Source: Aurantiochytrium sp. KH105 (Eukaryota; Sar; Bigyra; Thraustochytrida; Thraustochytriidae). Taken from it: DNA of 64,000 nt. Within the stretch, counting starts at the first letter, position 1. Each line of letters opens with the position of its first letter. The notes beneath the pieces were generated by a model. It saw only the letters and a list, made by a program, of their open reading frames with translations, was not told the origin of the DNA and ran no database searches. Where the stretch lies: contig BGKB01000016.1 in the NCBI GenBank assembly GCA_003116975.1, positions 313,127-377,126 on the forward strand, written 5' to 3'. Shown here piece by piece: positions 37,001 to 63,431 of this stretch. Both the position numbers and the translations under genes were made by a program.

Positions 37001-40000
37001 CTGCTCCGCCATCAGCAAAAGAGGAGCCCACTGAATCCAAAGAATCAGCCACTTTGGCGACCAAGACAGTCGCAGCCAAGAGCAAAGACGAAGTCGATGA
37101 AATCAAGGCCCAGGAAGAGTCCGAGGCCAAGGCCAAGGCCGACGCTGAGGCCACTGCGGCTGCAGCCGCCGCAGCCGCCGCCAAGGAGGAGGCAGAGGCG
37201 AAGAAACGAGAGGCCGAAAAGGCAGCCCGTGCGCGAGTGCGTGAGGAAGAACGAGAACGCGAACGTGAAGCAGAGACTGCCCGGGAGCGCGAGCTCGAGC
37301 GCCGCAAGCGCAAGCGCAAGCTTCCGTCGAAAGAAGTTGTCACAGAATCTCTGCGTCTTCTCGAAATGGAAATTGACAGCACACGCAAGGCTCTCGAACG
37401 GGTCGTCTCACAGAAACACAAGCTTGACGAGTCAGATGCCACGGATCGTGACGAGGATGAAGACATTGGGGCGCACCCCTCTCCCGTTGTACCGCCAATG
37501 AGCGGAAGTCCCGAATTCGATGAACTGTGTGTGCAGCTTGCAAGCGAAAACGCCAAGCGTGCGCGCGCGGCGCATAAGCCTCTGGAGCGTCTCAACTTTG
37601 ATCCGTCCAAGGTGCGGCCTGAAAGCAATGCGGCACTTGCCATCCGTAAACTGAATGCGCTGCAAGAACTGTATTCGAAACACAACTTTCCCGGTAGTCT
37701 CCCTCTCTACAGCAGCCCTGACGAGGCGCCCTGCTGGGAGGAGAATGCGCAAAGCTTTGCGCGCAAGCTTCCGCAGCTGAAGGCACGGATTGCCGTAGAC
37801 TTGGCTATGCAAAAGAGGTACCAGGGTGAGCTTCTTGTGAAATATCGGAATCTGCAGACGGCGTATGACGGTAAACGTTCAAGCCAAACGCGTGCCGCTT
37901 CGGAAGGCGCTGCCTCAACGGGACCGGGCGCCGGCGGACCAAACCGAGCAGCATCTGGCGCTGGCAACAAGACAAATATCATGAACGCCGAGACGGATCG
38001 CGATGCCTCGACGTCGAAACGCACGCGCAATGGCAACCCGGCCCACCGGTACCCTTCTCGCGGTACAACGACGATTCACGGTGACTTTGTTGGAAGTGAT
38101 TACGAAGCGCAGGCTCGCCTCAAGGAGCTGGAAGAGGCTGAGGCACGCGAAAAGACGCGGCAAATCAATGCCGCCACGCTGCCAGACATGATTGTCTCAG
38201 AGCGTTCGCAGCGACTTGCTCGGTTCGAGACGCAGACGACGCGGCTCACAACGGACGGCATGCCCGCGCGTTGCGCAGATTTACCTGGCCACGTGCCTTG
38301 TTCCGCCGTGGGCGCCGTGTACAAGGCTGAGAAAATGCAAGCCGGGCGGGAGACTCTTTCTGGTGACGCTGCAGAGCAGCCGACGCTGTCTGGCTGCAAC
38401 TGCGCTCGTGCCGTGGCAATGCAGAACACTTTGGTCAATCCCTGGACAGACCTCGAAAAGCTTATTTACGTGGACAAGTTTCTACAGTATCCCAAGGACT
38501 TTTACAAGATCTCTACGTTTTTGCGCAACAAGTCGACCCGCGACTGCGTGGAGTTCTATTACCGTGTGAAGAAGATGGGCTCGTTCAACTTCAAGATTCT
38601 GTTGCAAGAGCAATTTATGCATCGCAAGACGCAGCGCAAGCCGCAATGGACGCTTACGGAGGTGGCTGCGCGCGCGTTGGGGATTGAACTTCCCGCATCC
38701 GTGGAAGCCGAAGTGCGGCGGCAACAGAGCGACGAGGAGCAAAAGCGTCCGGCGGTGCCACCGTCTCCGAGCCTTTCCGAAGATACGCCGCTGGTTAACA
38801 AGACCAAAAAGGGCAAGAAACGCGGCAAGCGGGGTGATCACGACCAAGACGACGAGGACGAAGTTGTGCAGGTGGGCGTGAACCCCCCGCTTGGTCGTCT
38901 TTTGGGTGAAAACCGGTACAGCAGCATCGATATTCGTTCGCGTCACAAGGTTCCCGAGGTGCGTCCTCCTCGTCTACTCGTTGCCGCCGAGGCTACTGCT
39001 GGGGCATCATCGCCGGCCATGGCCTCTGCGACGACGAGCGGCGAGGTTCCCGCAGTGGTTGGGACTGGAGCTAGTGTGGCGGTGCCTCGGCGCGCTGCTG
39101 CAAATGCTGCAGGCATGAGTGTGGCAAGGACTGCGTCTGGTCCCAGCGCCACTTCTGGCGCCGGCCCTGTTCATTCAAGTGTCAAAGCTGGTGCAGGACT
39201 GGGAGCAGGGCCCGGAGCGGGGGCGAACGCCCGTGTGGCGACAGCGACATCATCATCATCATCAACGACAACACCAGCCGCGACAAGTAGCGGGACGAAA
39301 CGCGGGACGTGGACGTCCAGCGAGAGCGAGGTCTACATTGACTGCCTGCGCAAGTATGGCAAGGACTGGAAGATGCTGCAGGAGCTCGTCCCGACCAAAA
39401 CGATTCAACAGCTCAAGAATTATTACCAAAATTACAAGGCTCGGCACGGTTTTGACGAGATTGTCGCGCAACACGCTGCAAACGCGGCGGCCACCGGAGG
39501 CACAGCGGCCGGCGTTCCCTCAAGGCAGCCTTCAGGTCCTAGCTCGGCACAGAATAGTGCTCCTGCCGGGGCGGCAGCCGCCGCGGCAGGCGGGGCAGCG
39601 GCCACTGCAGGCTTTCAGTTCGAGAGTCTTTTGCATGCCTTTTTTGAAGCTGCAAAGACTGCATCGGCAAATCGTGATGCGAAGTCGTTGCAGCAGCTGC
39701 ACACGCAGATTCAGCAGGCGGCCACGAAGATGAATCTGGACCAATATCAGGCTCGCCAAATTTCTGATTTCCTGCATCAGATTGAGGCCGCAGTGGAGCA
39801 GCTTTTGATGCATGAGCGGACAGCAGCCGGATCTGACGCCGGCGCAAGTGCCGGTGCCGGTCATGATGTAGCACAGTCTCAAAAGGGATCAGCGTCGGCG
39901 GAGTCACATGATTTCCAGAACACGACTCTTCTCCAGTTCCAAAAGATTGGGCACGAGTTCCAAGTTGCGATGCACGAGACTACTGTGAATCCTTCTTTGA

Positions 40001-40725
40001 AGAATCTGATGATGCTTCGCGACAAGGTGGAGGAACTTATACGTTCGCAAGCGCTATCGCATGAAGTTCAGGTGAAGCGTCTTCAGCTCGTATTTGAACA
40101 GCGCATTGCAGAGCAAAAACAGGCAAACTTCCGGCCGGAGGAGATTAAAAAGTTAGAGGCGGAACATCAGAATCACCTCAGGGAGTTGAGAACCGTGCAG
40201 AATGCAGAGCGCGAAGAACTCAATGAGAACCGACGAGCGATTGAGACGGCCTTGGGGAATATGGTCAATGCTGGGAATGTCAAGGACGCAGAGGCAAATG
40301 CTGCTGCTACTGGGACTGCCTCTGCGGGTTCAGTGAATGTAAAGACGCAGCAACAGCAGAAGCAAAAACAAAAGCAACAGCCACAGCAACCGCAACAGCA
40401 ACAAGTGGGGGTTTTAAAGAAGGAGCCATCTGTAGGAGTCGGCCAACCCACGATGTCGCAGCAAGGTCAAGCGCAACAGCAGCAGCAAGCGTCCTCCAAC
40501 TCTACCTCTTCGTCTCAGTCGAACGAAGAACTCTTATCTCCTGAGGTGCTGCAGAAGTTCGTTGAATACTACCGAGCTGGCCAAATCACTCAGACGGATA
40601 TTGATAAGATGGTTCAGGATAAACATCTCAGCGAGGCGCACCTGAAGCAATTTGCTGAAGCAGTGCGAAAGGATGAGGAAGTGAGGCGACGCGACCAAGG
40701 CACCGCGCAACGTCAGCCAGCGGCT

Positions 40726-40756
<31 letters not shown>

Positions 40757-41127
40757 CTCAAATGACTTCTGCGCAGCTGGAAGAGGAGGTCATTCGTCTC
40801 GGCAACAACCCTCCAGCCTTGTACGAGTTACTCTCGAGCCATGGATTTTCCACCAACGATATCAAGAACATTATCGAGCGTCTTATCCAAGAGCAAGCTA
40901 ATGCGGAGCGCTCACGGCAGATTGACGAGGTGCTGAAGGAGTTCGGTCAATTGATTGGGGATGAGGACAAGGTCGCTCAGGTGGCCAAGCATTTGCGCGA
41001 AGGAGAGCTAAGCTTGGAGGATGTAAAGTCTCTCATTCAGCATTTGAGGCAGCAGCAACAACAACAACAGCAACAGCAACAGCAGCAACAATATCTCCAG
41101 CAACAACAGCAACTGCAGCAGCAACAG

Positions 41128-41158
<31 letters not shown>

Positions 41159-41760
41159 TGCAGCAACAACAGCGGCAGCAGCAGCAGCAGCAAAGTCAAA
41201 CTACTCAACGTGATGATCATCGCATTATCAACTCTTTGACAGAGGCGATGAAATTGAACATCGTCACCCACACCCAAGCAGAACAGCTTCTGTCCTCAGT
41301 GAATCCGTCCAATATTGCTGAAATTGCAGACAGCTTAGAAAAGCTTGTCCAAGAGCAGCAATTACAGAACGGCAACCAGCAGCAGCAGCAGCAACAACAA
41401 CAACAACGGCAGCAGCCTCTGTCCCAAGCAGGGCTCGTTCAGCACCCGTCCCTCTCTGTACAGCCACAGCAACAGCCTCATCAGGCGCAGCAGCAACAGA
41501 TGCATGCCATGATGGCTGCTCAACGACTGCAGCAGCCGCAGCAGCAGCAGCAACAGCAACAACAACAATCTCAACAACAGCAGCAGCAGCAGCAGCAGCA
41601 GCAACAGCAACAACAACAACAACAACAAACACAGATTCCACCGCAGCTATCGCAAGCGGATTTGGACCGACTTCTTCAAGATCCTCAAATTCTAATGCAG
41701 CTTCAACAGCTCCAGCAACAGCAACAACGGCAGCAACAGCAACAACAACAACACCGCTAG
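34042..41760 (+). CDS. N-CoR/SMRT/SMRTER-like corepressor with two SANT domains and polyQ C terminus
   Basis: 2,572 residues from ATG 34042 in one uninterrupted frame. Residues 1-1130 are disordered: Gly/Ser-rich, then Lys-rich blocks and proline runs. A basic coiled coil (EEEREREREAETARERELER) leads to SANT1 at about 1466-1520 (NPWTDLEKLIYVDKFLQYPK, FYKISTFLRNKSTRDCVEFY, YRVKKM) and SANT2 at about 1753-1800 (RGTWTSSESEVYIDCLRKYG, IQQLKNYYQNYKA). Two SANTs with this spacing and the LQYPK/DCVEFYYxxKK signature are those of N-CoR/SMRT and yeast Snt1. In those proteins SANT1 activates class I HDACs and SANT2 contacts histone tails. The last 440 residues are dominated by CAG/CAA-coded polyQ blocks with short helical segments (YRAGQITQTDIDKMVQDKHL). 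The N terminus is uncertain: the base N at 34039 probably hides a frame join to an upstream extension. Confidence 0.88.
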
Positions 41761-48067: not shown

Positions 48068-48348
48068 TTCTCTTTTTTTTGGAAAAAGTTTCAATGTCTT
48101 TTTTTACCCTTTTTTTTTTACTCTTTCTTTTCTTTTTTGGCCACACGCACAGAAACGTGGCCTGGACGGCATGAAATCAGAACAAGGTTTTACTCTAACG
48201 ACATGAAACCTGAACAAGTCTACTACCACTCAAACAACGGGGAATCTAAACAGGTCTACAAGTAGCCTACCGTGAATCAAAGAAGCCTCACAACTCATAT
48301 AGGCCTTGATTGAAAGGCACGGATTTTCGTTAAAAAAATACGTTTCGA
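48068..48348. other. T-rich spacer and start of the duplicated 3' flank
   Basis: T runs follow the tRNA. From about 48241 the sequence (GGAATCTAAACAGG...) matches 56103 onward, marking one edge of the large duplication. It is the 3' flank of the giant gene on the minus strand. Confidence 0.7.
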
Positions 48349-51300
48349 CTAGAATATGCCAAAGATCTTCTTCTTCGTCTTCTTCGGCGGAGGTCTTACG
48401 GAAGCGAGAAGATCGATCTCCTTGCAAATGATTCTGCGTTCATTACGTCCTTGGCCAAAGCGAACCAAATACTTTTGAGCACCTTGCACGCTCACCACGA
48501 CGCCAATCTCATGATGCGAGACGCGAGGGTGCTTTCCTCTGAATTTGACAACCGAGTTAGGCGAGAACTTGTTCGTGCGCGCGAGAGCGCTCGTGGTACG
48601 GGTGGTAGCGCGATAGCGTGAATCCCCTAACGGCGTCTTTTGAGCATTGAGGTGTTTCACAATCTTCATCCGCTCCTCGTACGGTGTCACAATGGATCGC
48701 AAGTCAGCAGCCGTGATGCCCTTGCACTTGCTTACAGTGTCGAAGCCTTTGCTGCACATCTGTCTGTAGTACTTTTGCATGCCAATTTCAGCGAGGCAGT
48801 CAACCAGATCCTCATCATCAGATGGGCTTCCGCCACGAGACCTACTTCGAGACCTGCTTCGAGACTTATACTTCGTGAACGCCTTGATGTACCTGTCGCG
48901 CTCAGCATAACTAAGGCCGATACCAGCAAGGCGGAGGTCTTGTTGCGTGGCATTGGCGCACGCTCGAAGTGTCTTGAATCTCTTCGCCATTGCTGCCATA
49001 TTCTTTTCGGTGGCCCCGGCCCTGCGCATGACCTTGCGGATCTCGGACTCCTCATCGGACGAAGACCCACTACTACTACTGCTAAAGCTACTGCCTCTGC
49101 TCCTGCGCCGCGAACCCTTGGAACGAGAGCGCGACCGGCTCTTCGACTTTGACTTTCGTTTGCTGGCGTGCTCCTGGATATACTTGTTGATCGCGAAGCG
49201 GTCGGTTTGAAAGATGCCCGTGACCTTTTTAAGGGCCAGCATATCTCCTCTGATTCCCTTCTCCACCGTGTACCCGGCGGCGAGGACTTGCTTCAGCTTT
49301 GCGTCCTGCTTGCACGACTTGAGGGCCTTGCGAATGAGTTCCTCGTCGCTCGAGGCACCATCCGATGAGGAGGAGGACCCTCCGCGAGATCGGCCCCGAC
49401 TGCGACTGCGGCTCTTCGACTTGCTTCGACTCGAGGACTTTGCATCCCTGAAGGCAGACAAAATCTTTTCCCGCTGAGAGAACGTGCCAACGCCCATGGT
49501 GCGCAAGTTAGCATGGTTCAAACCCTTGCACTTTTTAATAGTGGTGAAACCCGCCTTGGTAATCGGACCATAGAAGTCCGATTGACCGGCCTTGCGCAGG
49601 ATCGACCTGATCTCGCCCTTATCGTCGCCGCCGTCCGAGGCGCTCGATCCAGACGACGACCCAGACGACACTGACCGTTTACTTCCTCGGGATCGACCAC
49701 GATTTCGGCTCCTGCTGCGACTGCTCTTTTTCGCCTTGTAGCCTTCGAAGGCCTTCACCACGCGCGTACGCTCGGAAAAGGTTCCCTCGCGAACGGCCTC
49801 ACGCACATTCGCGTTAGTGAGTTTCTGACACTTTTTCACAGTATCATACCCATTTTTGATCAGGGGCTTCGCATACTTTTTCAAATTTGCGTCGGCCAGA
49901 ATCTTCTTGATAATCGCGCTTTCGTCGTCTGACGAATCGCTGCCCGACGAGTCCGAAGCCGATGATTCACTGCTGCTCGATGACCCTCTCTTCTTCTTCG
50001 AAGACTTGCTGCTGCTTCGGCTCTTGCTACGGCTCTTGCTGCGGCTCTTCTTCTTCTTCTTCTTCTTCTTTTCCTCGGCCTCTTTGAAGGCTGCCATGAG
50101 CTTAGTCCGGTGACCAAAGAGATTCACGCCAAGACCACGCAGATCCTGATGCTCCAATGCCGCGGCTTTGCGCAGGGTCGTAATCCTTTTCTTCTTGAAT
50201 TCGCTGGACGCCGCTGTTTGATTATTCTCTTTGAGAACGCTCTTAATCTTGTCCCAGTCGTCATCATCTCCACTGCCACTGCTGCTGCTGCTGCTGCTGC
50301 CACTCTCGCTGCTGCTTTCGCTCTTGCTGCTACTGCTGCTGCTGCTGCTGCTGTTGCTGCTGCTGGAGCCAGAGCGTCCTCGCTTGCTACTCTTGCTCTT
50401 GCTCCGCTTCCGGCTGCGGCTGCGACTCTTTGATGTCGACTTCGACTTGCTGCGGCTCTTGCTGCGGCTCTTGCTGCGGCTCTTCTCTGGGAGCTTGACG
50501 TTTCGAAAGCCTTCAATGATCGAGTCCCGCTGTCGAAATTTATCCAAACCCGCCGCCCGGAGATCCGAGTGCGTGACAGACTTGAGCTTTTTCAGCGACA
50601 TCAGCTTGGCCTTCTCAAGAGACTTCCGGGCACCTTCCTGGCCCACCTTCCTCAAAACCTTCTTGATCTTGGCCTTTTCGTCTTCATCTTCCGAGCCGCT
50701 GGAAGAACTCTCGGAAGAAGAGGATCCAGAGCTCGAAGATGACGACGAGGAGGAGGAGGAACGCTTCTTCTTGGACGATTTTGAAGACTTGGACGACCTC
50801 GAGCTCTTGCTCTTGCTACGGCTCTTGCTCCGCTTTTTGGACCCGGGCGGGGGGAGCGACCCGAACGCGTACTTGAGCTTCTCGCGCTCGCTAAATTGCC
50901 AGACACCCAGATCCTTCCACTCGCGATGGTCCATATCCTGGACCTTCTTCAAGGTTGTGAAACCGTCACTCAAGAGCTTCCTGGTGTGCGAATCGGCATC
51001 ATTTTCTTTCATCACCCTTTTAATCGTTGCCACGTCGTCCTCGCTACCTGTCCCACTCGAACTTCCCGACGATGAACTGCTGCTGCCCCCGCGAGACCGT
51101 CCACGCTTGCTGCTCTTCGACTTGCTACGGCTGCGGCTGCGGCGTTTCGACTTGCTGGCCTCCTGAAAGGCCGCGATCAATCGATCACGACTCGAGTAGA
51201 GAGTGATGCCAGCATCGCGCAGATCGGCGTGAGTGAGCTTCTGAAGTTTCTTTAGCGACTTGAAGCCTTTCTTTTCCAATTTCTTCCGCACACTGTCCGC

Positions 51301-52467
51301 CACTTTTTCTCCTTTGTAGACTTTCTTGATCTTTGCTGCCTCGTCATCGGATCCAGAGTCAGAGCTGCTGCTGCTTGCGCTGCTGCTACTGCTGCTCTTG
51401 CTCTTGCTCCGTTTCTTCGACTTGCTGCGACTCCGACTGCGACTCTTGCTTCGCTTCTCCGACATCTTGTCTCGAAGAGCATTCATAATCCGATCGCGCT
51501 CCGAAAACAGATTGATGCCCATGGCGCGCAGCTCGCCATGCGAAAGCTCCTTGCACTTCTTGAACGTTTTGTAGCCCTTCTTGAACAACACCTTGCAATG
51601 CTTCTCGAGACCAAGGTCCGTCAACGCCTTCTTGATCGCGCTCTTGTCATCCCCGCCATCACTGTCGCTGCTCGACGACGAGGAGGAGGACGCTTTCGAT
51701 GACGAACGCTTCTTGGACTTGCTGCGACTCTTACTGCGGCTCTTGCTGCGGCTCTTACTGCGGCTACGGCCAGAACTAGACTTGGCCCCGCCCTTCGATT
51801 CTTTGCACGCAGTATGGACCTTGAAACGGGTGAGCATGGGAATCCCGGCACTCCTCAACTCAAGGTGGCTATTCGCCTTACCTTTGGCCACCGTGAATCC
51901 CTCCTTCAAGGCAGCCTTGAGCTTGTCACTGATGCCCAAGTCCTTGAAGATGCCCTTCAGTATTTCCTCGTCGTTTCCCTCGTCACTACTGCTGCTGTCG
52001 TCCTTGGACGACTTCTTCTTCTTCTTCTTGGATGATGTGGACTTCTTGTCGTCTTCGCTGCTGCTGCTGCCGCTGCTGCTGCTATCGCTGTCGGAGGAGT
52101 CGTCTTTGCTCTTCTTGGAGTCCTTGTACTTTTTCGGATCGGCCTGTTTAAATGCCAGATGAATCTTCGTGCATGCTCCTCGAGGAATGCCCGCTTTGAG
52201 CAGATCGTCGAGGGGTACGTCCCGGCCCTGCTTGATCGTCTTTACCTTGGCCTTTTGCGTCACAGCCTTGTAATGGTCCATTAGTTCATTGTCCTTGAAG
52301 AGAGCCTTGACCGCGTCGCCGCCGCTCGAGCTCTTTTTGCCCTTCTTTTTCGATTTTCGGCTGCTCTTGCTCTTTTTCGACTTTTTCAACGCGTCACTGT
52401 TGCTCGAGCTCGAGCTCGAGCCAGAGCTCGAGCCATCATCTGAGCTGTCGCTTGAGTTATCGTCTGA
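48241..52467. repeat. Segmental duplication copy 1 (partner 56103-60326)
   Basis: About 4.2 kb nearly identical to 56103-60326 at a constant net offset of 7,859 bp near both ends. It covers 3' flank plus the last 12 SAM-like domains and the terminal module of the giant gene. Differences are scattered substitutions and small codon-number changes in Ser or Lys runs. Confidence 0.93.
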
Positions 52468-53437
52468 CGCAGGGATCAGGCTCTCGGCCTCAACAGCCTC
52501 GGCCTTTTCCTTGTCCTTCTTCTTCTTCTTCTTCTTCGATTTTCTCCGACTCAAAGACTTTGCATTCCTAAAGGCAGACTCAATCTTTACTCGCTGCGTG
52601 AACGTGCCAACGCCAATTCTGCGCAAGTCAGCTTGAGTCTTAACCTTGCACTTTTCAATAGTGGTGGAACCCGCCTTGGTAACCGGGCTATAAAAGTGCG
52701 ATAGACCGGCGTTTCGCAGGATCGACCTGATCTCGGCCGTATCGTCGTCACCATCCGAGGCGCTCGATCCAGACGACGACCCGGACGACACTGACCGTTT
52801 ACTTCCTCGGGATCGACCACGACTTCGGCTTCTGCTGCGACTGCTCTTTTTCGCCTTGTAGCCTTCGAAGGCCTTCACAACGCGCGTACGCTCGGAAAAG
52901 GTTCCCCCGCGAACGCTACGCAAATCCGCATACCTAAGTTTCTGACACTTTTTCACGGTATCGAAACCCTTTTCGATCAGGGGCTTCGCATACTTTTTCA
53001 AACCCGCGTCGGCCAGAATCTTCTTGATAATCGCAATTTCGTCATCTGACGAATCGCTACTCGATGAGTCCGAAGCTGAGGATTCACCGCTGCTCGACGA
53101 CCCTCTCTTCTTTTTCTTATCCGAAAACTTGCTGCTGCTTCGGCTCTTGCCTCGGCTCTTGGCACGGCTATTCTTCTTCTTTTCTTGGGCCTCTTTGAAG
53201 TCTTCCATGAGCTTAGTCCGATGACCAAAGAGATTCACGCCAAGATTTCGCAGATCCTGATGCTCCAATGCCGCGGCTTTGCGCAGGGTCGTAATCTTTT
53301 TCTTCTTGAATTCGCTGGACACCGCTGTTTGATTATTCTCTTTGAGGACGCTCTTGATCTTGTCCCAGTCGTCATCATCTCCTCTTTCACTGCTGCTACT
53401 GCTGCCACTCTCGCTGCTGTTACCGTTGTTGCTGTTG

Positions 53438-53497
<60 letters not shown>

Positions 53498-54087
53498 GAG
53501 CCAGAGCGTCCTCGCTTGCTACTCTTGCTCTTGCTCCGCTTGCGGCTGCGGCTGCGACTCTTTGATTTCGACTTCGACCTGCTGCGGCTCTTGCTGCGGA
53601 TCTTCGACTTGCGAGATTTGGAGCTGGCTTCCTGAAGGGCCTCGATCAATCTTTCGCGATTCGAGTCGAGCGTGATGCCAGCTGCGCGCAGCTCGCTGAG
53701 AGTGAGGTTCAGTATTTTCTTTACCTCAATGAGCATCCAGTTGCCCTGGGGCGCCATGCCCACGAGAAGTAGAGCGAAATCAGCATTCTCGGCCTCCTCT
53801 TGAGCCTCATCAGCTCCGCTTGCGGTGCGTACGGATAAGCTGGTGCGGGCCTGGATCGCTTCAACCGCCTGCTCGGCCACGGTCTCGTCCGCGGGATCGT
53901 GTACGATAAGGACGGAAAGGTCGTCGAGCACCTCAGGGGCCTCGAGGTCTGCAACGGCCTCTGCCTGGTCCACCGCAACAGTTTGTAGCTCTGCCTGCTC
54001 CTGCGCGGCTTCGTTCACCTCAACCTCAGTGTGCGATCCGCCGACGCGACCCCCGTTAAAGCGCGCAATCAAGTCCTGCACGCCCAT
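48349..54087 (-). CDS. Giant SAM-like repeat protein with SR-rich linkers and terminal SH3-like module (copy A)
   Basis: 1,912 residues from ATG 54087 (MGVQDLIARFNGG, in good context); in-frame ATG 54447 would add 120. Residues 57-126 look like an alpha/beta domain (LSVLIVHDPADETVAEQAVE, NADFALLLVGMAPQG). They run straight into the second half of a SAM-like unit (LTLSELRAAGITLDSNRERL). Then about 15 complete SAM-like domains follow, each roughly 55 residues of the form I+..L...G......KKGF.T..K...LTH.DLR..GI..FS.R.+I..AF, separated by linkers of RSRSKS, KKK and long Ser or Ser/Asp runs. The last about 60 residues are the beta-rich module VVKFRGKHPRVSHHEIGVVV ... RRIICKEIDLL. SAM domains polymerise or bind RNA or proteins, and SR linkers suggest nuclear phosphoregulated scaffolding; both roles are inference. 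The gene is single exon. Confidence 0.85.
52546..53640. repeat. Diverged internal duplication within copy A (partner about 49440-50520)
   Basis: Three consecutive SAM-like domains here (SVLKENNQTAVSSEFKKKK, ILADAGLKKYAKPLIEKGFD, ILRNAGLSHFYSPVTKAGST) are second copies of domains near the C terminus (SVLKENNQTAASSEFKKKR, ILADANLKKYAKPLIKNGYD, ILRKAGQSDFYGPITKAGFT) together with their linkers. They are more diverged than the 4.2-kb duplication and therefore older. Confidence 0.8.
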
Positions 54088-55232
54088 GGTCGTCAGAGAC
54101 AGGCCCGGGCCAGGACTCGCCGAGGCCCTCTTCTTTCCTTCGACCGCGATCCCCTTCTCGCGCGCGGCTGCGCCCTCCCGAGCGCCTTCTCTCCCCCCTC
54201 CCCCCGGCGGCTGCGCGTCCTCGATCTCGCCCTCCGCCCTTCTCGGGCAAATCGGTTCTGCTGCACGCGCTGCAAGCGCTGCTGCTGCGCTGCACGCGCT
54301 GCACGCGCTGCACGCGCTGCACGCGCTGGACACGCTACACGTGCGTGCTGCTGCGCCTGCCGCCTCAGGTGTGGCTGCACCACAGCTGGTGCGAAGGGAA
54401 ATTGCGTGCAAAAATTTCTGCATCGTCCAGTGCAGAATACCCCCCATTACCACGTGAACGATCGATGTTTTTCTGTTGGAGGGGGTAAAACAAGAATTGT
54501 ATGCGGCACGTGCTGCGCATTTCTCCGAAGCCCTTCTTCTCTCCCCATGTAATCGAGGGGGCGGGGGTGTGCGTGCGTGCGTGGACAACGCAGGTGGTCG
54601 CAGCCGCGCCGCTGCCAAGCATCATGATGGCTGGCGGCCGTGCTCCTGCGTGCGCGCGTAAAGGCGTGCACCTGCTATGGAGCAACTTGAAGTCGTACCC
54701 GCAGCCGCCCAGCGTGAATTTGGCCGAGCCTATGCAGCATGACGACGTAGAGCGCGCTTTAACGAGCTCGAGGGCGCGTGCTTTGCCGGCCCGGAGGGGA
54801 AGGTTGCACCCTGCTGCTGGGAGGTCTCGGCGTTTTTTTTATGGTGAGCGATGCTGAACTTCTGTGAATAGGAGATTGGTAGAAACGAACTTTACCTGGT
54901 GATTGAAAAGAAAAGGAAGAGTGAAGCAACAGAGAAGGAAGAGCTGCGAGGCATTGTGCAACGCCACAATCCAGATAAGAGACGAAATCAGTAGAAACAG
55001 ATGGACAATACATTTTGCGTCAACGAACTCGTAGCATTGAATGAGTTGCGTCAGCAAGCCCCATACTCTTCTGGCTCGTGCAGACGCGAGGGGGAACGCT
55101 CCGTCTTCCAAAGTGTCAACATTCAACAAAAGGGCTCATGGTGAACGTTGCCTCGAGTGCGAAAAGGCATGTATCGAAGTGAGAAGCCGATGAGCCAATC
55201 GTCGTGCGCTATTACTTCAAGAGCGAGATTGC
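54088..55232. promoter_or_regulatory. Upstream region of copy A, with nonamer repeat
   Basis: 1.1 kb. The first 530 bp remain open in the giant gene's frame and include a CTGCACGCG-type nonamer repeat at about 54260-54335, which would code for Ser-Ala-Cys repeats if the start at 54447 is used. The remainder has no credible gene; a hydrophobic minus-strand frame at 54839-55129 lacks an ATG. Confidence 0.5.
54260..54335. repeat. Nonamer repeat (CTGCACGCG-like)
   Basis: About five near-perfect copies of a 9-base unit in the leader or N-terminal coding region of copy A. Confidence 0.85.
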
Positions 55233-56127
55233 TTGCATGATATTCTTAGTAGTGTTAGCTGCGTGCCGAATTCTCCAAGTGATGAACGTGAAAGAATTGG
55301 TCACGCATACGACTTCGATAGCGGAACTTCTCACGTCCAAAGAGAAGATTTTGGCACCACAAAGGACAGAATCAGCCCACTTGATGATAAGTACAGCTTG
55401 AGTTCAAGTGAACTTCTTGCATTGGGGCACGAAGCAGCGCTTAGCACCCTGTTGCCGCAGATACAGGCCACGTGCGTTATCGAACCCCGAGCACGTCGAC
55501 ACTTTTCCGACGAATGAATAGTATATCAAAGAGTGGCAAGAATGGCGCTTTGGGAGTTCGTGCTGAATGATGCATCCCGGAATTGGGGACAAGGTCTTTC
55601 CGCAGAGAGTCCTTTGCGTGCGATGCGATTGTTCTACCACATGAATGTTCATCGGAAGAACAATTTCTGCAACCATTCTCTCAGAGCTTCTGACAAAGAT
55701 CAAAGAAGAGCGGAGCATGCGACACAATTGCAAACGCGCGACGCGCGGAGAGCAAAAGAGTTCTGGGCTTTCCTGCTAGAGACACGGAGACTAATCTTCG
55801 TGCTCTTCGAAGTTTCCTTGATCGGGACCCAAAAGTGCCACGTACTCGCCCAAGCACACCAACGATCCTCAGCCAGGACGAGGTGGTGTTTTTGTCGTTG
55901 CCAAGCGAAACCCCGTGCATGTGCCTCATACCAACAGGCTCGCCGGCCTTGTCTTCCACCTCGGGTGCTGACGACGCTGCAACCGCAAACACAACCCAGG
56001 GCGAGTTCACGCACGCGTCTACGTCCAGAGTGTCATTGCCACTCGCGACGCAGGGATTGCACCCTTCGGCAAGTTTGTTGCTTGCATGTACTCACACGAC
56101 AAGGAATCTAAACAGGTCTACAAGTAG
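55233..56127 (+). pseudogene. Probable broken protein-coding gene at the duplication edge
   Basis: Coding-like segments lie in order on the plus strand in different frames: about 55233-55517 (SPLDDKYSLSSSELLALGHE), 55730-56020 (LRALRSFLDRDPKVPRTRPS, ILSQDEVVFLSLPSETPCMC), and about 56010-56127 (VYVQSVIATRDAGIAPFGKF, then VACMYSHDKESKQVYK and a stop). No splice sites link them convincingly, and the last step looks like a one-base frameshift. The final ESKQVYK-stop is also present at 48241-48265, so the duplication break lies inside this gene's last codons. Function not recognised. An intact multi-exon gene is the alternative. Confidence 0.35.
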
Positions 56128-59100
56128 CCTACCGTGAATCAAAAAGCCTCACAACTCATATAGGCCTTGATTGAAAGGCACGGATTTTCGTTAAAAATAC
56201 GTTTCGACTAGAATATGCCAAGAATCTTCTTCTTCTTCTTCTTCGGCGGAGGTCTTACGGAAGCGAGAAGATCGATCTCCTTGCAAATGATTCTGCGTTC
56301 ATTACGTCCTTGGCCAAAGCGAACCAAATACTTTTGAGCACCTTGCACGCTCACCACGACGCCAATCTCATAATGCGAGACGCGAGGGTGCTTTCCTCTG
56401 AACTTGACAACAGAATTGGGCGAGAACTTGTTCGTGCGCGCGAGAGCGCTCGTGGTACGGGTGTTAGCGCGATAGCGTGAATCCCCTAACGGCGTCTTTT
56501 GAGCATTGAGGTGTTTCACAATCTTCATCCGCTCCTCGTACGGTGTCACAATGGATCGCAAGTCAGCAGCCGTGATGCCCTTGCACTTGCTTACAGTGTC
56601 GAAGCCTTTGCTGCACATCTGTCTGTAGTACTTCTGCATGCCAATTTCAGCGAGGCAGTCGACCAGATCCTCATCATCAGATGAGCTTCCGCCACGAGAC
56701 CTGCTTCGAGACCTGCTTCGAGACTTATACTTCGTGAACGCCTTGATGTACCTGTCGCGCTCAGCATAAGTAACGCCGATACCAGCAACGCGGAGGTCTT
56801 GTTGCGTGGCATTGGCGCACGCTCGAAGTGTCTTGAATTTCTTCGCCATTGCTGCCATATTCTTTTCGGTGGCCCCGGCCCTGCGCATGACCTTGCGGAT
56901 CTCGGACTCCTCATCGGACGAAGACCCACTACTACTACTGCTAAAGCTACTGCCTCTGCTCCTGCGCCGCGAACCCTTGGAACGAGAGCGCGACCGGCTC
57001 TTCGACTTTGACTTTCGTTTGCTGGCGTGCTCCTGGATATACTTGTTGATCGCGAAGCGGTCGGTTTGAAAGATGCCCGGGACCTTTTTAAGGGCCAGCA
57101 TATCTCCTCTGATACCCTTCTCCACCGTGTACCCGGCGGCGAGGACTTGCTTCAGCTTTGCGTCCTGCTTGCACGACTTGAGGGCCTTGCGAATGAGTTC
57201 CTCGTCGCTCGAGGCACCATCCGATGAGGAGGAGGACCCTCCGCGAGATCGGCCCCGGCTGCGACTGCGGCTCTTCGACTTGCTTCGACTCGAGGACTTT
57301 GCATCCCTTAAGGCAGTCAAAATCTTTTCCCGCTGAGAGAACGTGCCAACGCCCATGGTGCGCAAGTTAGCATGGTTCAAACCCTTGCACTTTTTAATAG
57401 TGGTGAAACCCGCCTTGGTAATCGGACCATAGAAGTCCGATTGACCGGCCTTGCGCAGGATCGACCTGATCTCGCCCTTATCGTCGCCGCCGTCCGAGGA
57501 GCTCGACCCAGACGACGACCCAGACGACACTGACCGTTTACTTCCTCGGGATCGACCACGACTTCGGCTCCTGCTGCGACTGCTCTTTTTCGCCTTGTAG
57601 CCTTCGAAGGCCTTCACCACGCGCGTACGCTCGGAAAAGGTTCCCTCGCGAACGGCCTCACGCACATTCGCGTTAGTGAGTTTCTGACACTTTTTCACAG
57701 TATCATACCCATTTTTGATCAGGGGCTTCGCATACTTTTTCAAATTTGCGTCGGCCAGAATCTTCTTGATAATCGCAATTTCGTCGTCTGACGAATCGCT
57801 GCCCGACGAGTCCGAAGCCGATGATTCACTGCTGCTCGATGACCCTCTCTTCTTCTTCGAAGACTTGCTGCTGCTTCGGCTCTTGCTACGGCTCTTGCTG
57901 CGGCTCTTCTTCTTCTTCTTCTTTTCCTCGGCCTCTTTGAAGGCTGCCATGAGCTTAGTCCGGTGACCAAAGAGATTCACGCCAAGACCACGCAGATCCT
58001 GATGCTCCAATGCCGCGGCTTTGCGCAGGGTCGTAATCCTTTTCTTCTTGAATTCGCTGGACGCCGCTGTTTGATTATTCTCTTTGAGAACGCTCTTAAT
58101 CTTGTCCCAGTCGTCATCATCTCCACTGCCACTGCTGCTGCTGCTGCCACTCTCGCTGCTGCTTTCGCTCTTGCTGCTACTGCTGCTGCTGCTGCTGCTG
58201 TTGCTGCTGCTGGAGCCAGAGCGTCCTCGCTTGCTACTCTTGCTCTTGCTCCGCTTCCGGCTGCGGCTGCGACTCTTTGATGTCGACTTCGACTTGCTGC
58301 GGCTCTTGCTGCGGCTCTTGCTGCGGCTCTTCTCTGGGAGCTTGACGTTTCGAAAGCCTTCAATGATCGAGTCCCGCTGTCGAAATTTATCCAAACCCGC
58401 CGCCCGGAGATCCGAGTGCGTGACAGACTTGAGCTTTTTCAGCGACATCAGCTTGGCCTTCTCAAGAGACTTCCGGGCACCTTCCTGGCCCACCTTCCTC
58501 AAAACCTTCTTGATCTTGGCCTTTTCGTCTTCATCTTCCGAGCCGCTGGAAGAACTCTCGGAAGAAGAGGATCCAGAGCTCGAAGATGACGACGAGGAGG
58601 AGGAGGAACGCTTCTTCTTGGACGATTTTGAAGACTTGGACGACCTCGAGCTCTTGCTCTTGCTACGGCTCTTGCTCCGCTTTTTGGACCCGGGCGGGGG
58701 GAGCGACCCGAACGCGTCCTTGAGCTTCTCGCGCTCGCTAAATTGCCAGACACCCAGATCCTTCCACTCGCGATGGTCCATATCCTGGACCTTCTTCAAG
58801 GTTTTGAAACCGTCACTCAAGAGCTTCTTGGTGTGCGAATCGGCGTTATTTTCTTTCATCACCCTTTTAATCGTTGCCACGTCGTCCTCGCTACCTGTCC
58901 CACTCGAACTTCCCGACGACGAACTGCTGCTGCCCCCGCGAGACCGTCCACGCTTGCTGCTCTTCGACTTGCTACGGCTGCGGCTGCGGCGTTTCGACTT
59001 GCTGGCCTCCTGAAAGGCCGTGATCAATCGATCACGACTCGAGTAGAGAGTGATGCCAGCATCGCGCAGATCGGGGTGAGTGAGCTTCTGAAGTTTCTTT

Positions 59101-60326
59101 AGCGACTTGAAGCCTTTCTTTTCCAATTTCTTCCGCACACTGTCCGCCACTTTTTCTCCTTTGTAGACTTTCTTGATCTTTGCTGCCTCGTCATCGGATC
59201 CAGAGTCAGAGCTGCTGCTGCTTGCGCTGCTGCTACTGCTGCTCTTGCTCTTGCTCCGTTTCTTCGACTTGCTGCGACTCCGACTGCGACTCTTGCTTCG
59301 CTTCTCCGACGTCTTGTCTCGAAGAGCATTCATAATCCGATCGCGCTCCGAAAACAGATTGATGTCCATGGCGCGCAGCTCGCCATGCGAAAGCTCCTTG
59401 CACTTCTTGAACGTTTTGTAGCCCTTCTTGAACAACACCTTGCAATGCTTCTCGAGACCAAGGTCCGTCAACGCCTTCTTGATCGCGCTCTTGTCATCCC
59501 CGCCATCACTGTCGCTGCTCGATGACGAGGAGGAGGACGCTTTCGATGACGAACGCTTCTTGGACTTACTGCGACTCTTACTGCGGCTCTTACTGCGGCT
59601 CTTGCTGCGGCTCTTACTGCGGCTACGGCCAGAACTAGACTTGGCCCCGCCCTTCGATTCTTTGCACGCAGTATGGACCTTGAAACGGGTGGCCATGGGA
59701 ATCCCGGCACTCCTCAACTCAAGGTGGCTATTCGCCTTACCTTTGGCCACCGTGAATCCCTCCTTCAGGGCAGCCTTGAGCTTGTCGCTGATGTCCAAGT
59801 CCTTGAAGATGCCCTTCAGTATTTCCTCGTCGTTTCCCTCGTCACTACTGCTGCTGTCGTCCTTGGACGACTTCTTCTTCTTCTTCTTGGATGATGTGGA
59901 CTTCTTGTCGTCTTCGCTGCTGCTGCTGCCGCTGCTGCTGCTATCGCTGTCGGAGGAGTCGTCTTTGCTCTTCTTGGAGTCCTTGTACTTTTTCGGATCG
60001 GCCTGTTTAAATGCCAGAAGAACCTTCGTGCATGCTCCTCGAGGAATGCCCGCTTTGAGCAGATCGTCGAGGGGTACGTCCCGGCCCTGCTTGATCGTCT
60101 TTACCTTGGCCTTTTGCGTCACAGCCTTGTAATGGTCCATTAGTTCATTGTCCTTGAAGAGAGCCTTGACCGCGTCGCCGCCGCTCGAGCTCTTTTTGCC
60201 CTTCTTTTTCGATTTTCGGCTGCTCTTGCTCTTTTTCGACTTTTTCGACGCGTCACTGTCGCTCGAGCTCGAGCTCGAGCCAGAGCTCGAGCCATCATCT
60301 GAGCTGTCGCTTGAGCTATCGTCTGA
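56103..60326. repeat. Segmental duplication copy 2 (partner 48241-52467)
   Basis: Partner of copy 1, same orientation, about 7.86 kb away. After 60326 the two sequences part. Copy A skips 60327-60817 of copy B and resumes similarity at 60818-60890 (bases encoding KEKAEADEAESLIPA). Confidence 0.93.
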
Positions 60327-63300
60327 GCTCTCGCTCGTGCTCTCGCTCGAACTGCTCTCGCTCGAAGAGTCGTCCGAGCTGTCCTCCGAGCTACTGTCAT
60401 CACCCTTCTTCGACTTCTTCTTCTTGGTCTTCTTGCTACCCTTCTTTTTGTCGCCCTTCTTCTTGCGACCCTTCTTGGAGGAAGACGACTTCTTTTTCGA
60501 GGAAGACTTCTTCTTCTTCTTGCTTCCCTTCTTGTCGGATTTCTTAGAAACCTTGACGAGCTTACCAGACTTGATGGCCTTTTGCAGTTCCTTCTTCCTG
60601 TTGTCAAGCTTCACCGCAGCCTCCGACGGGGTATAAGACGAGAACACATTGAGTAGCCGTACGCGCAAAGCAGGAACACCTATGCCAAGATTCTTCCAGC
60701 CCTCGTCCGTCAGCTCCTTGCACGACGCTGCATTGGCTAAGCCCCCGCTCTTGATCATATCAAAGTATCCCTGGGCGCCTTCGCTCTGCAGAATCTTCTT
60801 CAACTCATCTTCGACCGCAGGGATCAGGCTCTCGGCCTCATCAGCCTCGGCCTTTTCCTTGTCCTTCTTCTTCTTCTTCTTCTTTGAAGATTTTTCCGCC
60901 TCCTTCGCAGCACCTTCGCTGGGCATAGCCGTGGGCTCCGGGGCCGGATTTTGGCCCAACTCTTTCATTTTGGTGAGAAGAATGTCGATGAGGGCGAGGT
61001 CCTCGATGCCGGCACGCTTGATGTGCGCGTGCGTCACGCCATCAAAGTCGCGCAGCGTACGATATCCGCCAAGCGCTAGCTTTTCCTTGAACTGGCTCAT
61101 CGCCAAGCTGTCGAGCGCATCATTGAGAGCTTGGTCCATTTGCACCACGGAACTGCTTGACTCCCCGGGAGAAGAGGCGTCGCCTACCTTGACGTCCGGC
61201 ATGACTACCGTCGCTTCCTTGATCCTGTCCAGGATCTTGCGTCGCGCAACGTAGCTGTCGATGCCAATGTCTTCAAGCTCAGGCATGGCCATGTCGCGCA
61301 CCGCCTCCAGCGTCGTCTTTCCGCTGATTTGAAAGTTCGGAATATAGTGATCGAGCTTCGCTGCGCGCAACAAGGTCTCCAGGCCAAACTCCAGCTTTTT
61401 CAGCTGCACGCGCGCATTGTTCGAGGCGTCGGCCTGCTGGGCGGCCGCGGCCGTGGCTGCTGCAGCAGCAGCGATGGAAACCCCGACTGAGGTTGAGGGG
61501 CTGCGCGCACGCACCACCGACGTGGAACGGGTCGCCGGACCTGACGGGAGAGGGGCCGAAAACTTGACCTTGTCCAGGATGATATCGGCGTGCGTAAGAT
61601 TCCTCACGCCAGCCTTGCGTAGATCGCGGTTCGTGACCATATCAAAGTCACGCAGCGTCCGGAACCCGGCGCGCGCGAGACATTCCTTGTATTGAGCCAT
61701 CTGAAGACGGTCCAGAGCAAAGTCGAGTTCTTCATCAATCTCCAAATGTGACTCTTCCGAGTCGGAGCCGGCGCCACCAGCGACAACGACCACATCCGTC
61801 GCGCTTGCCCCGTCCGAGGTGTCTTCAATGGCCATGTGTACCTTGTCAAGAATTTGCCGTCGGTCGTCATAGCTCGACACGCCAATCTCTTCCAGCTGAG
61901 GCATACTCATATCGCGAACGGATTTGAGCGAGTACCTGCCTGCAAGCAGAAAGTGCTGCAAGTACTTCTTCATGTTGATGGCGCGCAAGAGCGACTCTAG
62001 CTCTGGATCCAATCTGCGCACCCGTACGCGCGATTGGGAGCGCGCGCGAGACTGCCCGCGAACGCGCGTCACAACCACAGATTTACCTCGCGTTCGCGAC
62101 CTGCTCGACGTGTTGTAGTCGCGGTCGTTGCGCTCGAGCGAGCGGGCCCTGCGGCTCGACGCCGGTGGAATGCCTTGAAAGACACCCGGTCGGAACCCAT
62201 TACGCTGCAGGACACGGCGCTCGAACTCTTGCGCTCTCGAAGCCACGCTCGTCGACTGAGCCTGCATGCGCCGCTGCGCATCTTTCAAAGCGGCAGCCTT
62301 GAAAGCTTCCATCAGACGCTCTCGTTGCGAGGCTACGTTGAGGCCCTTTTCGCGCAGGACCTGGTGCGTGAGCGATTTGGCGCGAGCAAGCGTGTAGTTT
62401 TCAAACAGTGGCTTCATGTGCCCGTATCCGAGCTCGTCCAGAACGGCCTCGACCGGGTCCACGGATCCATCGGAGGAGCCCTCATCGCTTTCGGATCCGC
62501 CGGCGGCATCATCAAAGTCCTCGCCCGAGCCTGCGATTGAGCCTCCGGACTCTGATGGCGTTTCGTAGTTGATGAACGCGTGCAAGATAGCAGCACGATC
62601 CTTGAACTCATTGATGCCCCAGCTCGTCATGTCATGGTGCGTCAGCGCTTGCGCATCCTCGATCGTCACGCAATTATTTTTGTCAAAGATGGGCATGTAC
62701 TTTTGCAGTCCGAGACGACGCAGCACGATCTGAATGTCGCGGTACTCATCGCGCTCGGACCCGCTCATGGACATGGTGTCGTCTTCGTCGCTGATGACAA
62801 TGTTGCGATCCCGCGGTCGCCGCGACGGTCCGCGTGACGCTGCACGCACGGCGGGCCTTGGACCGCGGGAAGAAGATCTTCTCCTCCGAGAGGCTGACCG
62901 CGTGCCGTTGCGCTGAGGCTTGGAGGACGACGAGGATCGTCGCTGGCCGGAGCGACCTTTACTCGAGCTCCGTTTGGCGGAAGAGCCCCTCATTCGACGT
63001 GGCGAGGCGCGCGAACTAGATCTCATGCGCGCTGCTTGGCGCGCGTACAGCTCATCCTCGTCTGTTTCAGAGGATTCGATATCGGAATCGAGCTCTGACA
63101 CGAACAACAAATCGTCCATGCGCTTGCGAAAGTCGAAGCCGACCTTTTCATGGGCCCTATCGTCCACAACGGAGGCGAGGATTTCTGTGCGTAGAGGCAG
63201 AGCGTTTGTAGTCCGTTTCGCTTTTCCTGACGACGAGCTTCGGCCGGAGGCACCGCGCGACGCGCTCCGCGTGCGTGAGGGCCCGCGTGAGGACTCACGG

Positions 63301-63431
63301 ACCTTGGAGACCGACCTTGCCCTTCTCGACGACGACCCGCTCCCCGCGGACGCCGCGATGTCTCCGCGGCTTCTGCTCCGCACACGCATGATATCCATGT
63401 GCCGCGAGTGCGACCGCGTGCGAGCACTCAT
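56208..63431 (-). CDS. Giant SAM-like repeat protein with SR-rich N terminus and terminal SH3-like module (copy B)
   Basis: 2,407 residues from ATG 63431 (MSARTRSHSRHMD), one exon. Residues 1-210 are Ser/Arg-rich with SRGPSR-type repeats, interrupted by one acidic segment. About 19 SAM-like domains follow by my count. The first is the clearest canonical SAM (LGLQKYMPIFDKNNCVTIED, HHDMTSWGINEFKDRAAILH). Domains 3/5 and 4/6 are paired duplicates (SLKSVRDMSMPQLEEIGVSS with TLEAVRDMAMPELEDIGIDS). Domains 8-19 match copy A almost exactly. Linkers change from ordinary disordered sequence early on to Lys-rich and Ser-run linkers later. The C-terminal module reads VVKFRGKHPRVSHYEIGVVV ... RRIICKEIDLL. 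The longer, more canonical N-terminal array suggests copy B is closer to the ancestral gene. A nuclear or cytoskeletal scaffold role is inference. Confidence 0.87.
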   Translation of the reverse strand: MSARTRSHSRHMDIMRVRSRSRGDIAASAGSGSSSRRARSVSKVRESSRGPSRTRSASRGASGRSSSSGKAKRTTNALPLRTEILASVVDDRAHEKVGFDFRKRMDDLLFVSELDSDIESSETDEDELYARQAARMRSSSRASPRRMRGSSAKRSSSKGRSGQRRSSSSSKPQRNGTRSASRRRRSSSRGPRPAVRAASRGPSRRPRDRNIVISDEDDTMSMSGSERDEYRDIQIVLRRLGLQKYMPIFDKNNCVTIEDAQALTHHDMTSWGINEFKDRAAILHAFINYETPSESGGSIAGSGEDFDDAAGGSESDEGSSDGSVDPVEAVLDELGYGHMKPLFENYTLARAKSLTHQVLREKGLNVASQRERLMEAFKAAALKDAQRRMQAQSTSVASRAQEFERRVLQRNGFRPGVFQGIPPASSRRARSLERNDRDYNTSSRSRTRGKSVVVTRVRGQSRARSQSRVRVRRLDPELESLLRAINMKKYLQHFLLAGRYSLKSVRDMSMPQLEEIGVSSYDDRRQILDKVHMAIEDTSDGASATDVVVVAGGAGSDSEESHLEIDEELDFALDRLQMAQYKECLARAGFRTLRDFDMVTNRDLRKAGVRNLTHADIILDKVKFSAPLPSGPATRSTSVVRARSPSTSVGVSIAAAAAATAAAAQQADASNNARVQLKKLEFGLETLLRAAKLDHYIPNFQISGKTTLEAVRDMAMPELEDIGIDSYVARRKILDRIKEATVVMPDVKVGDASSPGESSSSVVQMDQALNDALDSLAMSQFKEKLALGGYRTLRDFDGVTHAHIKRAGIEDLALIDILLTKMKELGQNPAPEPTAMPSEGAAKEAEKSSKKKKKKKDKEKAEADEAESLIPAVEDELKKILQSEGAQGYFDMIKSGGLANAASCKELTDEGWKNLGIGVPALRVRLLNVFSSYTPSEAAVKLDNRKKELQKAIKSGKLVKVSKKSDKKGSKKKKKSSSKKKSSSSKKGRKKKGDKKKGSKKTKKKKSKKGDDSSSEDSSDDSSSESSSSESTSESSDDSSSDSSDDGSSSGSSSSSSDSDASKKSKKSKSSRKSKKKGKKSSSGGDAVKALFKDNELMDHYKAVTQKAKVKTIKQGRDVPLDDLLKAGIPRGACTKVLLAFKQADPKKYKDSKKSKDDSSDSDSSSSGSSSSEDDKKSTSSKKKKKKSSKDDSSSSDEGNDEEILKGIFKDLDISDKLKAALKEGFTVAKGKANSHLELRSAGIPMATRFKVHTACKESKGGAKSSSGRSRSKSRSKSRSKSRSKSRSKSKKRSSSKASSSSSSSSDSDGGDDKSAIKKALTDLGLEKHCKVLFKKGYKTFKKCKELSHGELRAMDINLFSERDRIMNALRDKTSEKRSKSRSRSRSKSKKRSKSKSSSSSSASSSSSDSGSDDEAAKIKKVYKGEKVADSVRKKLEKKGFKSLKKLQKLTHPDLRDAGITLYSSRDRLITAFQEASKSKRRSRSRSKSKSSKRGRSRGGSSSSSSGSSSGTGSEDDVATIKRVMKENNADSHTKKLLSDGFKTLKKVQDMDHREWKDLGVWQFSEREKLKDAFGSLPPPGSKKRSKSRSKSKSSRSSKSSKSSKKKRSSSSSSSSSSSGSSSSESSSSGSEDEDEKAKIKKVLRKVGQEGARKSLEKAKLMSLKKLKSVTHSDLRAAGLDKFRQRDSIIEGFRNVKLPEKSRSKSRSKSRSKSKSTSKSRSRSRKRSKSKSSKRGRSGSSSSNSSSSSSSSSKSESSSESGSSSSSGSGDDDDWDKIKSVLKENNQTAASSEFKKKRITTLRKAAALEHQDLRGLGVNLFGHRTKLMAAFKEAEEKKKKKKSRSKSRSKSRSSSKSSKKKRGSSSSSESSASDSSGSDSSDDEIAIIKKILADANLKKYAKPLIKNGYDTVKKCQKLTNANVREAVREGTFSERTRVVKAFEGYKAKKSSRSRSRSRGRSRGSKRSVSSGSSSGSSSSDGGDDKGEIRSILRKAGQSDFYGPITKAGFTTIKKCKGLNHANLRTMGVGTFSQREKILTALRDAKSSSRSKSKSRSRSRGRSRGGSSSSSDGASSDEELIRKALKSCKQDAKLKQVLAAGYTVEKGIRGDMLALKKVPGIFQTDRFAINKYIQEHASKRKSKSKSRSRSRSKGSRRRSRGSSFSSSSSGSSSDEESEIRKVMRRAGATEKNMAAMAKKFKTLRACANATQQDLRVAGIGVTYAERDRYIKAFTKYKSRSRSRSRSRGGSSSDDEDLVDCLAEIGMQKYYRQMCSKGFDTVSKCKGITAADLRSIVTPYEERMKIVKHLNAQKTPLGDSRYRANTRTTSALARTNKFSPNSVVKFRGKHPRVSHYEIGVVVSVQGAQKYLVRFGQGRNERRIICKEIDLLASVRPPPKKKKKKILGIF

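Follow-up and report, generated by a model that had tools for sequence, protein, structure and literature searches.

What do two adjacent giant genes that repeat a single type of domain many times over encode, and how did such a pair arise? The question is raised by a 64,000-nucleotide stretch of Aurantiochytrium sp. KH105, here called the window (positions 313127-377126 of contig BGKB01000016.1, referred to as C16), in which a first-pass annotation had described two adjacent giant minus-strand frames of 1,912 and 2,407 codons. Both frames are present as described and are called gene A and gene B. The 76-Mb assembly (367 contigs) was searched for related sequences, and a second contig, C41, aligned to C16 at 93.8% identity along 27.5 kb covering gene B, the start of gene A and a further gene, C. 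We regard C16 and C41 as probably two haplotypes rather than homoeologues. Together the data are best explained by a gene B that encodes a multivalent SAM scaffold with patterned charge and a gene A derived later as a chimeric copy of the array, a reading to which we give a probability of about 0.5.

56208-63431, minus strand: gene B, uninterrupted open frame from ATG, 2407 amino acids, about 19 SAM units
48349-54087, minus strand: gene A, uninterrupted open frame, 1912 amino acids from the ATG at 54087, about 16 SAM units

SAM arrays of genes A and B

The repeats had been called SAM-like from the sequence alone, and profile searches and structure prediction bore this out. Pfam SAM_1 and SAM_2 scored 127 and 97 bits on gene A and 182 and 164 bits on gene B (cut-offs 23 and 20.5), so that both proteins pass as members of the SAM domain families PF00536/PF07647. 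Single SAM stretches passed at a loose E<=1 in 4/4 cases in gene A and 7/8 in gene B, and a six-frame Pfam search of the genome at E<=0.001 found at least 7 distinct SAM places in B and at least 4 in A. A profile built from 16 gene B units matched 46 distinct PDB sequences (E<=0.01), including those of Eph, ANKS (ANKS1A/B), SHIP2, Caskin (Caskin-1/2), SASH (SASH1), tankyrase, ARAP, Bicaudal-C and similar proteins, and we take all 46 to carry SAM-protein names except one 'putative 47 kDa protein'. An AlphaFold2 model of gene B residues 2170-2407, made from an alignment of four rows, folded the first of two SAMs as five helices, with a predicted local distance difference test score (pLDDT) of 74-93 by block in the SAM regions. 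By profile and predicted fold, the SAM identity of the repeats is firm.

The size of the arrays was also close to the earlier estimate of about 15 units in A and about 19 in B. A custom hidden Markov model (HMM) at E<=1, counting half and weak units, listed 19 units in each contig's gene B; in gene A it listed 16 units on C16 and 11 on C41. Fifteen of the gene B units served as seeds and so match by construction; among the four unseeded ones SAM 7 was clear (7.9e-6) and three were weak (0.0021, 0.019 and 0.26). Units 8, 9 and 17 of gene B were weak when scored one by one, gene A likewise contained three weak units (0.00057, 0.017 and 0.18) and began with the C-terminal half of a SAM only, and the boundaries of weak units were placed by eye. 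The seed HMM gave zero matches at an independent E-value (i-E) <=0.01 on 200 shuffled proteins.

A tree of the SAMs (46 rows, 59 columns) had firm support at 7/43 inner branches with 27/43 open, and its bootstrap was unsettled. SAM 4 and SAM 6 of gene B formed a well-supported duplicate pair and SAM 3 and SAM 5 fell close together. The gene B SAMs grouped no more than shuffled labels (11 changes against a shuffled mean of 11.0), and the tree therefore does not support a single origin of the gene B units. A well-supported branch (98/92) separated ten other SAMs of the genome, together with one SAM from another multi-SAM gene, on contig C82, from the rest.

The two genes had further been described as single-exon. 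Both frames are indeed uninterrupted, and single-exon status is read from the open frame alone; the gene A frame stays open to 54618 if a TTG start is allowed.

Two halves of gene B

Gene B falls into two parts that differ in the charge of their SAMs and in their linkers, and it ends in a small module that is common to both genes.

60636-62735, minus strand: SAM 1-7 of gene B, near-neutral (net charge -1 to +3), their linkers lacking the basic-to-acidic order
56505-60179, minus strand: SAM 8-19 of gene B, all basic (net charge +3 to +11), joined by linkers of RS/KS, poly-Ser and acidic tracts
56208-56504, minus strand: gene B C-terminal module, 98 amino acids, strands predicted at low confidence
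48349-48645, minus strand: gene A C-terminal module, 98 amino acids

The linkers had been described as SR-rich, and RS/KS/poly-Ser tracts do separate the SAM units in both proteins, with RS, SR, KS and SK dipeptides numbering 58 to 67 of each per protein. Within the SAM 8-19 part, 10/11 linkers run in the order basic RS/KS, then poly-Ser, then acidic, the SAM 8-9 linker departing from it, and the same charge order was found in 13/15 linkers of gene A and in 0/6 linkers of the N-terminal half of gene B. In a control covering the gene B linkers from SAM 9 to SAM 19, 10/10 were basic-to-acidic, compared to a shuffled mean of 0.5 and maximum of 4 in 2000 trials. By crude residue-range charges, the helix 2-4 side was net basic in 12/12 array SAMs (SAM 8-19) and mixed in SAM 1-7.

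Comparison of C16 with C41 separated the two parts by selection as well. For gene B, the first 968 codons gave a ratio of nonsynonymous to synonymous substitution rates (dN/dS) of 0.116, the following 449 codons 0.234 and the part from SAM 11 onwards 0.44; for the SAMs alone it was 0.05 in the N-terminal half vs 0.49 in SAM 11-19. Array linkers gave 0.28 and the C-terminal module 0.48, and values for single SAMs scattered from 0.11 to 1.79 on small counts. The N-terminal half of gene B is thus under strong purifying selection, which supports translation of the gene, and the last nine SAMs (11-19) evolve faster, through weaker constraint or diversification.

The last 73 amino acids of the end module, queried with the gene A copy, matched only genes A and B on C16 and C41 (4 places, E<=0.1), and no Pfam family scored above cut-off. 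The description of this module as beta-rich is plausible at most: AlphaFold2 predicted four strands in the gene B copy at a pLDDT of only 30-42.

Gene A, the STAND family and concerted evolution

The 5' end of gene A resembles a different group of genes from its array, and its 3' end resembles gene B.

53725-54087, minus strand: gene A codons 1-121, truncated N-terminal domain common to a TIR-NACHT-WD40 STAND family
54088-54652, minus strand: gene A 5' flank, piecewise homology to upstream DNA of 7/10 sampled STAND loci
53626-53724, minus strand: half SAM just past the fusion junction (53725/53724), C-terminal half, gene A residues 122-154
48228-52467, minus strand: gene A 3' segment, 98.1% identity to gene B 56090-60326 along 4.25 kb, about 120 bp beyond the stop
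56090-60326, minus strand: matching 3' segment of gene B, homogenised with that of gene A
52533-53604, minus strand: extra 1.1-kb block in gene A, 86% copy of 49413-50472 of the same gene

A genome search with gene A residues 1-146 returned 61 matches at E<=10, of which 57 lay outside both A copies at E<=0.001, some being pieces of one gene and both haplotypes being counted. Codons 1-121 were 70% identical in protein and up to 80% identical in DNA to one family member. Ten family loci were sampled (L031-L038, L042, L043), with open frames of 1266-2016 amino acids. Among the best 25 Pfam families for each whole frame of five loci, WD40 appeared in 5/5 and NPHP3_N, a NACHT-type NTPase, in 4/5. 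TIR_2 was over cut-off in 3/4 scanned N-terminal parts and just short in the fourth, where the scanned stretch ended within the TIR_2 match. These NLR-like STAND receptor genes of a protist form a large family with the order N-terminal domain, TIR_2, NACHT, WD40.

Homology to the upstream DNA of gene A was found in 7/10 family loci, reaching at longest 565 bases upstream, and coding-DNA homology in 8/10. Four of these eight coding matches end at 53724-53726 and the others at 53731, 53757 (twice) and 53804, so that the longest family matches end at the boundary of gene A residues 121/122, where the half SAM unit starts. On these alignments, gene A is a chimera in which the flank and N-terminus of a STAND-family gene are joined to a SAM array. 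The junction is common to C16 and C41, indicating that the fusion predates their split. A GT lies at 53724-53723, exactly at the junction, and is a candidate intron start; the frame continues unspliced and the next DNA is SAM coding like SAM 11 of gene B, so splicing is not needed here.

Gene A itself is not a member of the STAND family, having no TIR, NACHT or WD40 match in Pfam, and a tblastn search with member residues 186-900 (TIR2 to NACHT, without the WD40 part) gave no match at E<=0.01 in the C16 and C41 regions. AlphaFold2 placed the gene A N-terminal domain in a beta-alpha-beta order at low confidence. A TIR-like identity for this domain was rejected, as Pfam gave no TIR match and hhalign against the TIR_2 of the family a probability of 0.3%. 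A subtelomeric position of the family, suspected from contig ends, was also dropped: TTAGGG was absent from eight ends of family contigs and CCCTAA numbered one at most, and repeats by themselves can be where a contig breaks off.

Of the informative sites between SAM 11 and the stop codon, 164 join A with B on each contig and 2 pair the A copies with each other and the B copies with each other; the third possible grouping has 1. The dS between A and B was 0.021 on C16 and 0.037 on C41, compared to about 0.13 between the contigs. The homogenised block extends beyond the stop codons; on C16 it measures 4.25 kb (98.1% identity) and on C41 3.24 kb (96.1%). On each contig the two genes therefore have homogenised 3' arrays.

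Function of the arrays and related genes

A multivalent scaffold is the natural reading of gene B, as judged from its sequence. The seven conserved, near-neutral N-terminal SAMs may make specific contacts, which the strong constraint there suggests, and the twelve basic C-terminal SAMs and their basic-to-acidic linkers would form a multivalent, charge-patterned chain that the small C-terminal module would cap. The partners of the basic SAMs and RS tracts may be Ser/Asp tracts in adjacent copies, either acidic or phosphorylated, or else different polyanions, and serine phosphorylation may tune assembly. Gene A would have arisen later, as a tandem copy of the array half, with the direction of copying presumably from B to A, its fusion to the flank and 121 N-terminal codons from a TIR-NACHT-WD40 STAND gene preceding the split of the haplotypes. 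Gene conversion or unequal exchange would afterwards have kept the A and B arrays alike in each haplotype while gene A changed in length, and the borrowed upstream region may drive gene A.

Several observations weigh against this reading. In classical SAM polymers an acidic face meets a basic one and the mid-loop face is acidic, unlike the basic helix 2-4 side seen here. The gene B linkers SAM 7-8 and SAM 8-9 break the charge order, and the shuffling control covered neither. The linkers are related by duplication, so 10/10 does not amount to ten independent observations; they descend from one another and the pattern was retained, not invented ten times. On small counts, dN/dS exceeds 1 in SAM 13 (1.04 and 1.77) and in SAM 19 of gene A (1.79), the SAMs of A and B on C16 give 0.96 from 17 changes, and the 0.44-0.49 of the faster part may reflect weak constraint instead of function. 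The gene A copy on C41 has TAG at codon 4, where C16 has CAG, and may be silent or start further down, unless the TAG is an assembly error, which is possible. The haplotype status of the two contigs is itself deduced. As for complementary surfaces in general, polymerising SAMs pair mid-loop and end-helix faces, according to PMC10252437.

The ratio of 0.44, the stop in the C41 copy and the 16 vs 11 units of the two gene A copies would also be expected if the 3' arrays were weakly constrained repeat expansions that recombination keeps alike, with only the N-terminal half of B mattering (dN/dS 0.116) and gene A a decaying by-product. Gene A, a chimera, is possibly such a decaying copy. For the arrays as a whole we find this account unlikely, as all four are open downstream of codon 4, dN/dS of the whole 3' part is below 0.5 in 6/6 pairs, the 117 N-terminal codons of gene A give 0.20 (15 changes) and the linker charge order is retained in A. 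A nuclear-body role had been suggested in the first-pass annotation. The abundance of RS, SR, KS and SK dipeptides and the strongly basic array would suit a nuclear-body scaffold, in which SR-protein-type kinases phosphorylate the RS linkers and the SAMs polymerise inside nuclear bodies; against it, KS pairs are as frequent as RS pairs, a Pfam scan of A and B (E<=1) found no RRM or other RNA-processing family, and an adjacent myosin with a related SAM fits a cytoskeletal context equally well, and we judge it to have a minor chance. Basic SAMs and RS linkers would also be compatible with an array of Smaug/Vts1-type RNA-binding SAMs, an improbable case given that neither name occurs among the 46 PDB matches.

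The adjacent myosin is gene C, a frame of about 3080 amino acids just past the window end, with the same orientation and order relative to B on both contigs (L027:118-9291; L030). In Pfam its C41 copy matches a myosin head (204 bits) and, in two stretches, SAM above cut-off (SAM_1 45.5 bits, cut-off 23), with PH, IQ and zinc-ribbon matches below cut-off, and on these domains gene C is a divergent SAM-bearing myosin. Its first SAM pairs with SAM 1 of gene B at 94/86, just below the firm-support mark of the tree. The conserved adjacency, the domains and this pairing would fit a cortical or cytoskeletal scaffold that acts with the myosin, for instance in a structure that serves motility or secretion. 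Neighbouring eukaryotic genes need not belong to one pathway, a common SAM ancestry may mean local duplication only, and 27/43 inner branches of the tree are open, so this remains rather unlikely. The C-terminal stretch of gene C resembles the end module of the array genes, by eye only.

The best related region outside the A/B locus (E 1.7e-12) was another multi-SAM gene, a 3546-amino acid frame at C82:172210-182847 (minus strand) with an allele (the C82/C94 gene). The HMM, which was trained on some of them, found 11 SAM-like stretches in it at E<=0.001, of which Pfam passes 2 singly. The frame ends in a NEL E3 ligase domain (PF14496, 97 bits) and also has an LRR match (LRR_EndoS, 29.4 bits against a cut-off of 27.9); it differs from A and B in this C-terminus and, by eye, in its few RS linkers. 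The first-pass annotation had overlooked this gene, as well as the chimeric make-up of A, the concerted evolution of A and B and the two selective regimes in B.

Elsewhere in the window, a 2572-amino acid open frame lies at 34042-41760 (plus strand), the first 839 residues of which match no Pfam family at E<=0.001. An ordinary eukaryotic gene with RCC1 repeats and BTB and BACK domains lies at 11638-13389 (minus strand). A gene at 3-2597 (minus strand) matches WD40 and IFT80/172-type TPR, resembling a ciliary transport protein, which suggests a flagellated stage.

Compared to known systems, A and B are closest in plan to animal multi-SAM scaffolds (liprins, CASKIN, ANKS1, SASH1, SARM1), which likewise carry several SAMs per scaffold. 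According to a review of multi-SAM proteins (PMC10252437), three SAMs occur in liprins alone and two in each of the others, vs about 11-19 here on RS/poly-Ser/acidic linkers; the Pfam scan of A and B also found neither ankyrin nor SH3 families. RS dipeptide tracts are also a feature of SR proteins. That family is defined by an RRM plus an RS domain, and in A and B the RS tracts are linkers between SAMs and the Pfam scan found no RRM, so they are not SR proteins. With STAND/NLR-like NACHT-WD40 receptors (compare fungal NLRs, PMC4986451), gene A shares the homology of its first 121 codons and 5' flank and differs by the missing TIR, NACHT and WD40 matches. We consider it highly improbable that the locus serves as a rapidly changing scaffold for recognition or signalling. 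In that case a charge-patterned SAM polymer would underlie an immune or self/non-self adaptor of a protist, its array varying in number and sequence between haplotypes and held in register through gene conversion, with gene A placing the array under the promoter and N-terminus of an immune-receptor-like STAND family.

Protein-database searches with gene B residues 200-2407 and 228-840 scored 7946 and 7984 candidates with none at threshold, linker words possibly crowding out others, and residues 2250-2407 gave 194 candidates with none at threshold; this does not mean absence in nature, as databases may lack close relatives. Literature searches found nothing joining the SAM domain with thraustochytrids or labyrinthulomycetes, and by title no thraustochytrid NACHT work on such genes and no comparable SAM array. 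The SAM domain is already known; the scale of the array and the order of its linkers are undescribed as far as these searches reach.

These genes would raise the number of units in a SAM scaffold from the few known in animals to almost twenty, strung on charged linkers with a pattern, and the array may offer a natural system for studying how assembly depends on multivalency and on the order of charges. Gene A records a gene birth, in which a receptor-family upstream region and N-terminus were fused to a repeat array that then underwent concerted evolution, and two haplotypes are available in which the fusion and the concerted evolution can be compared.

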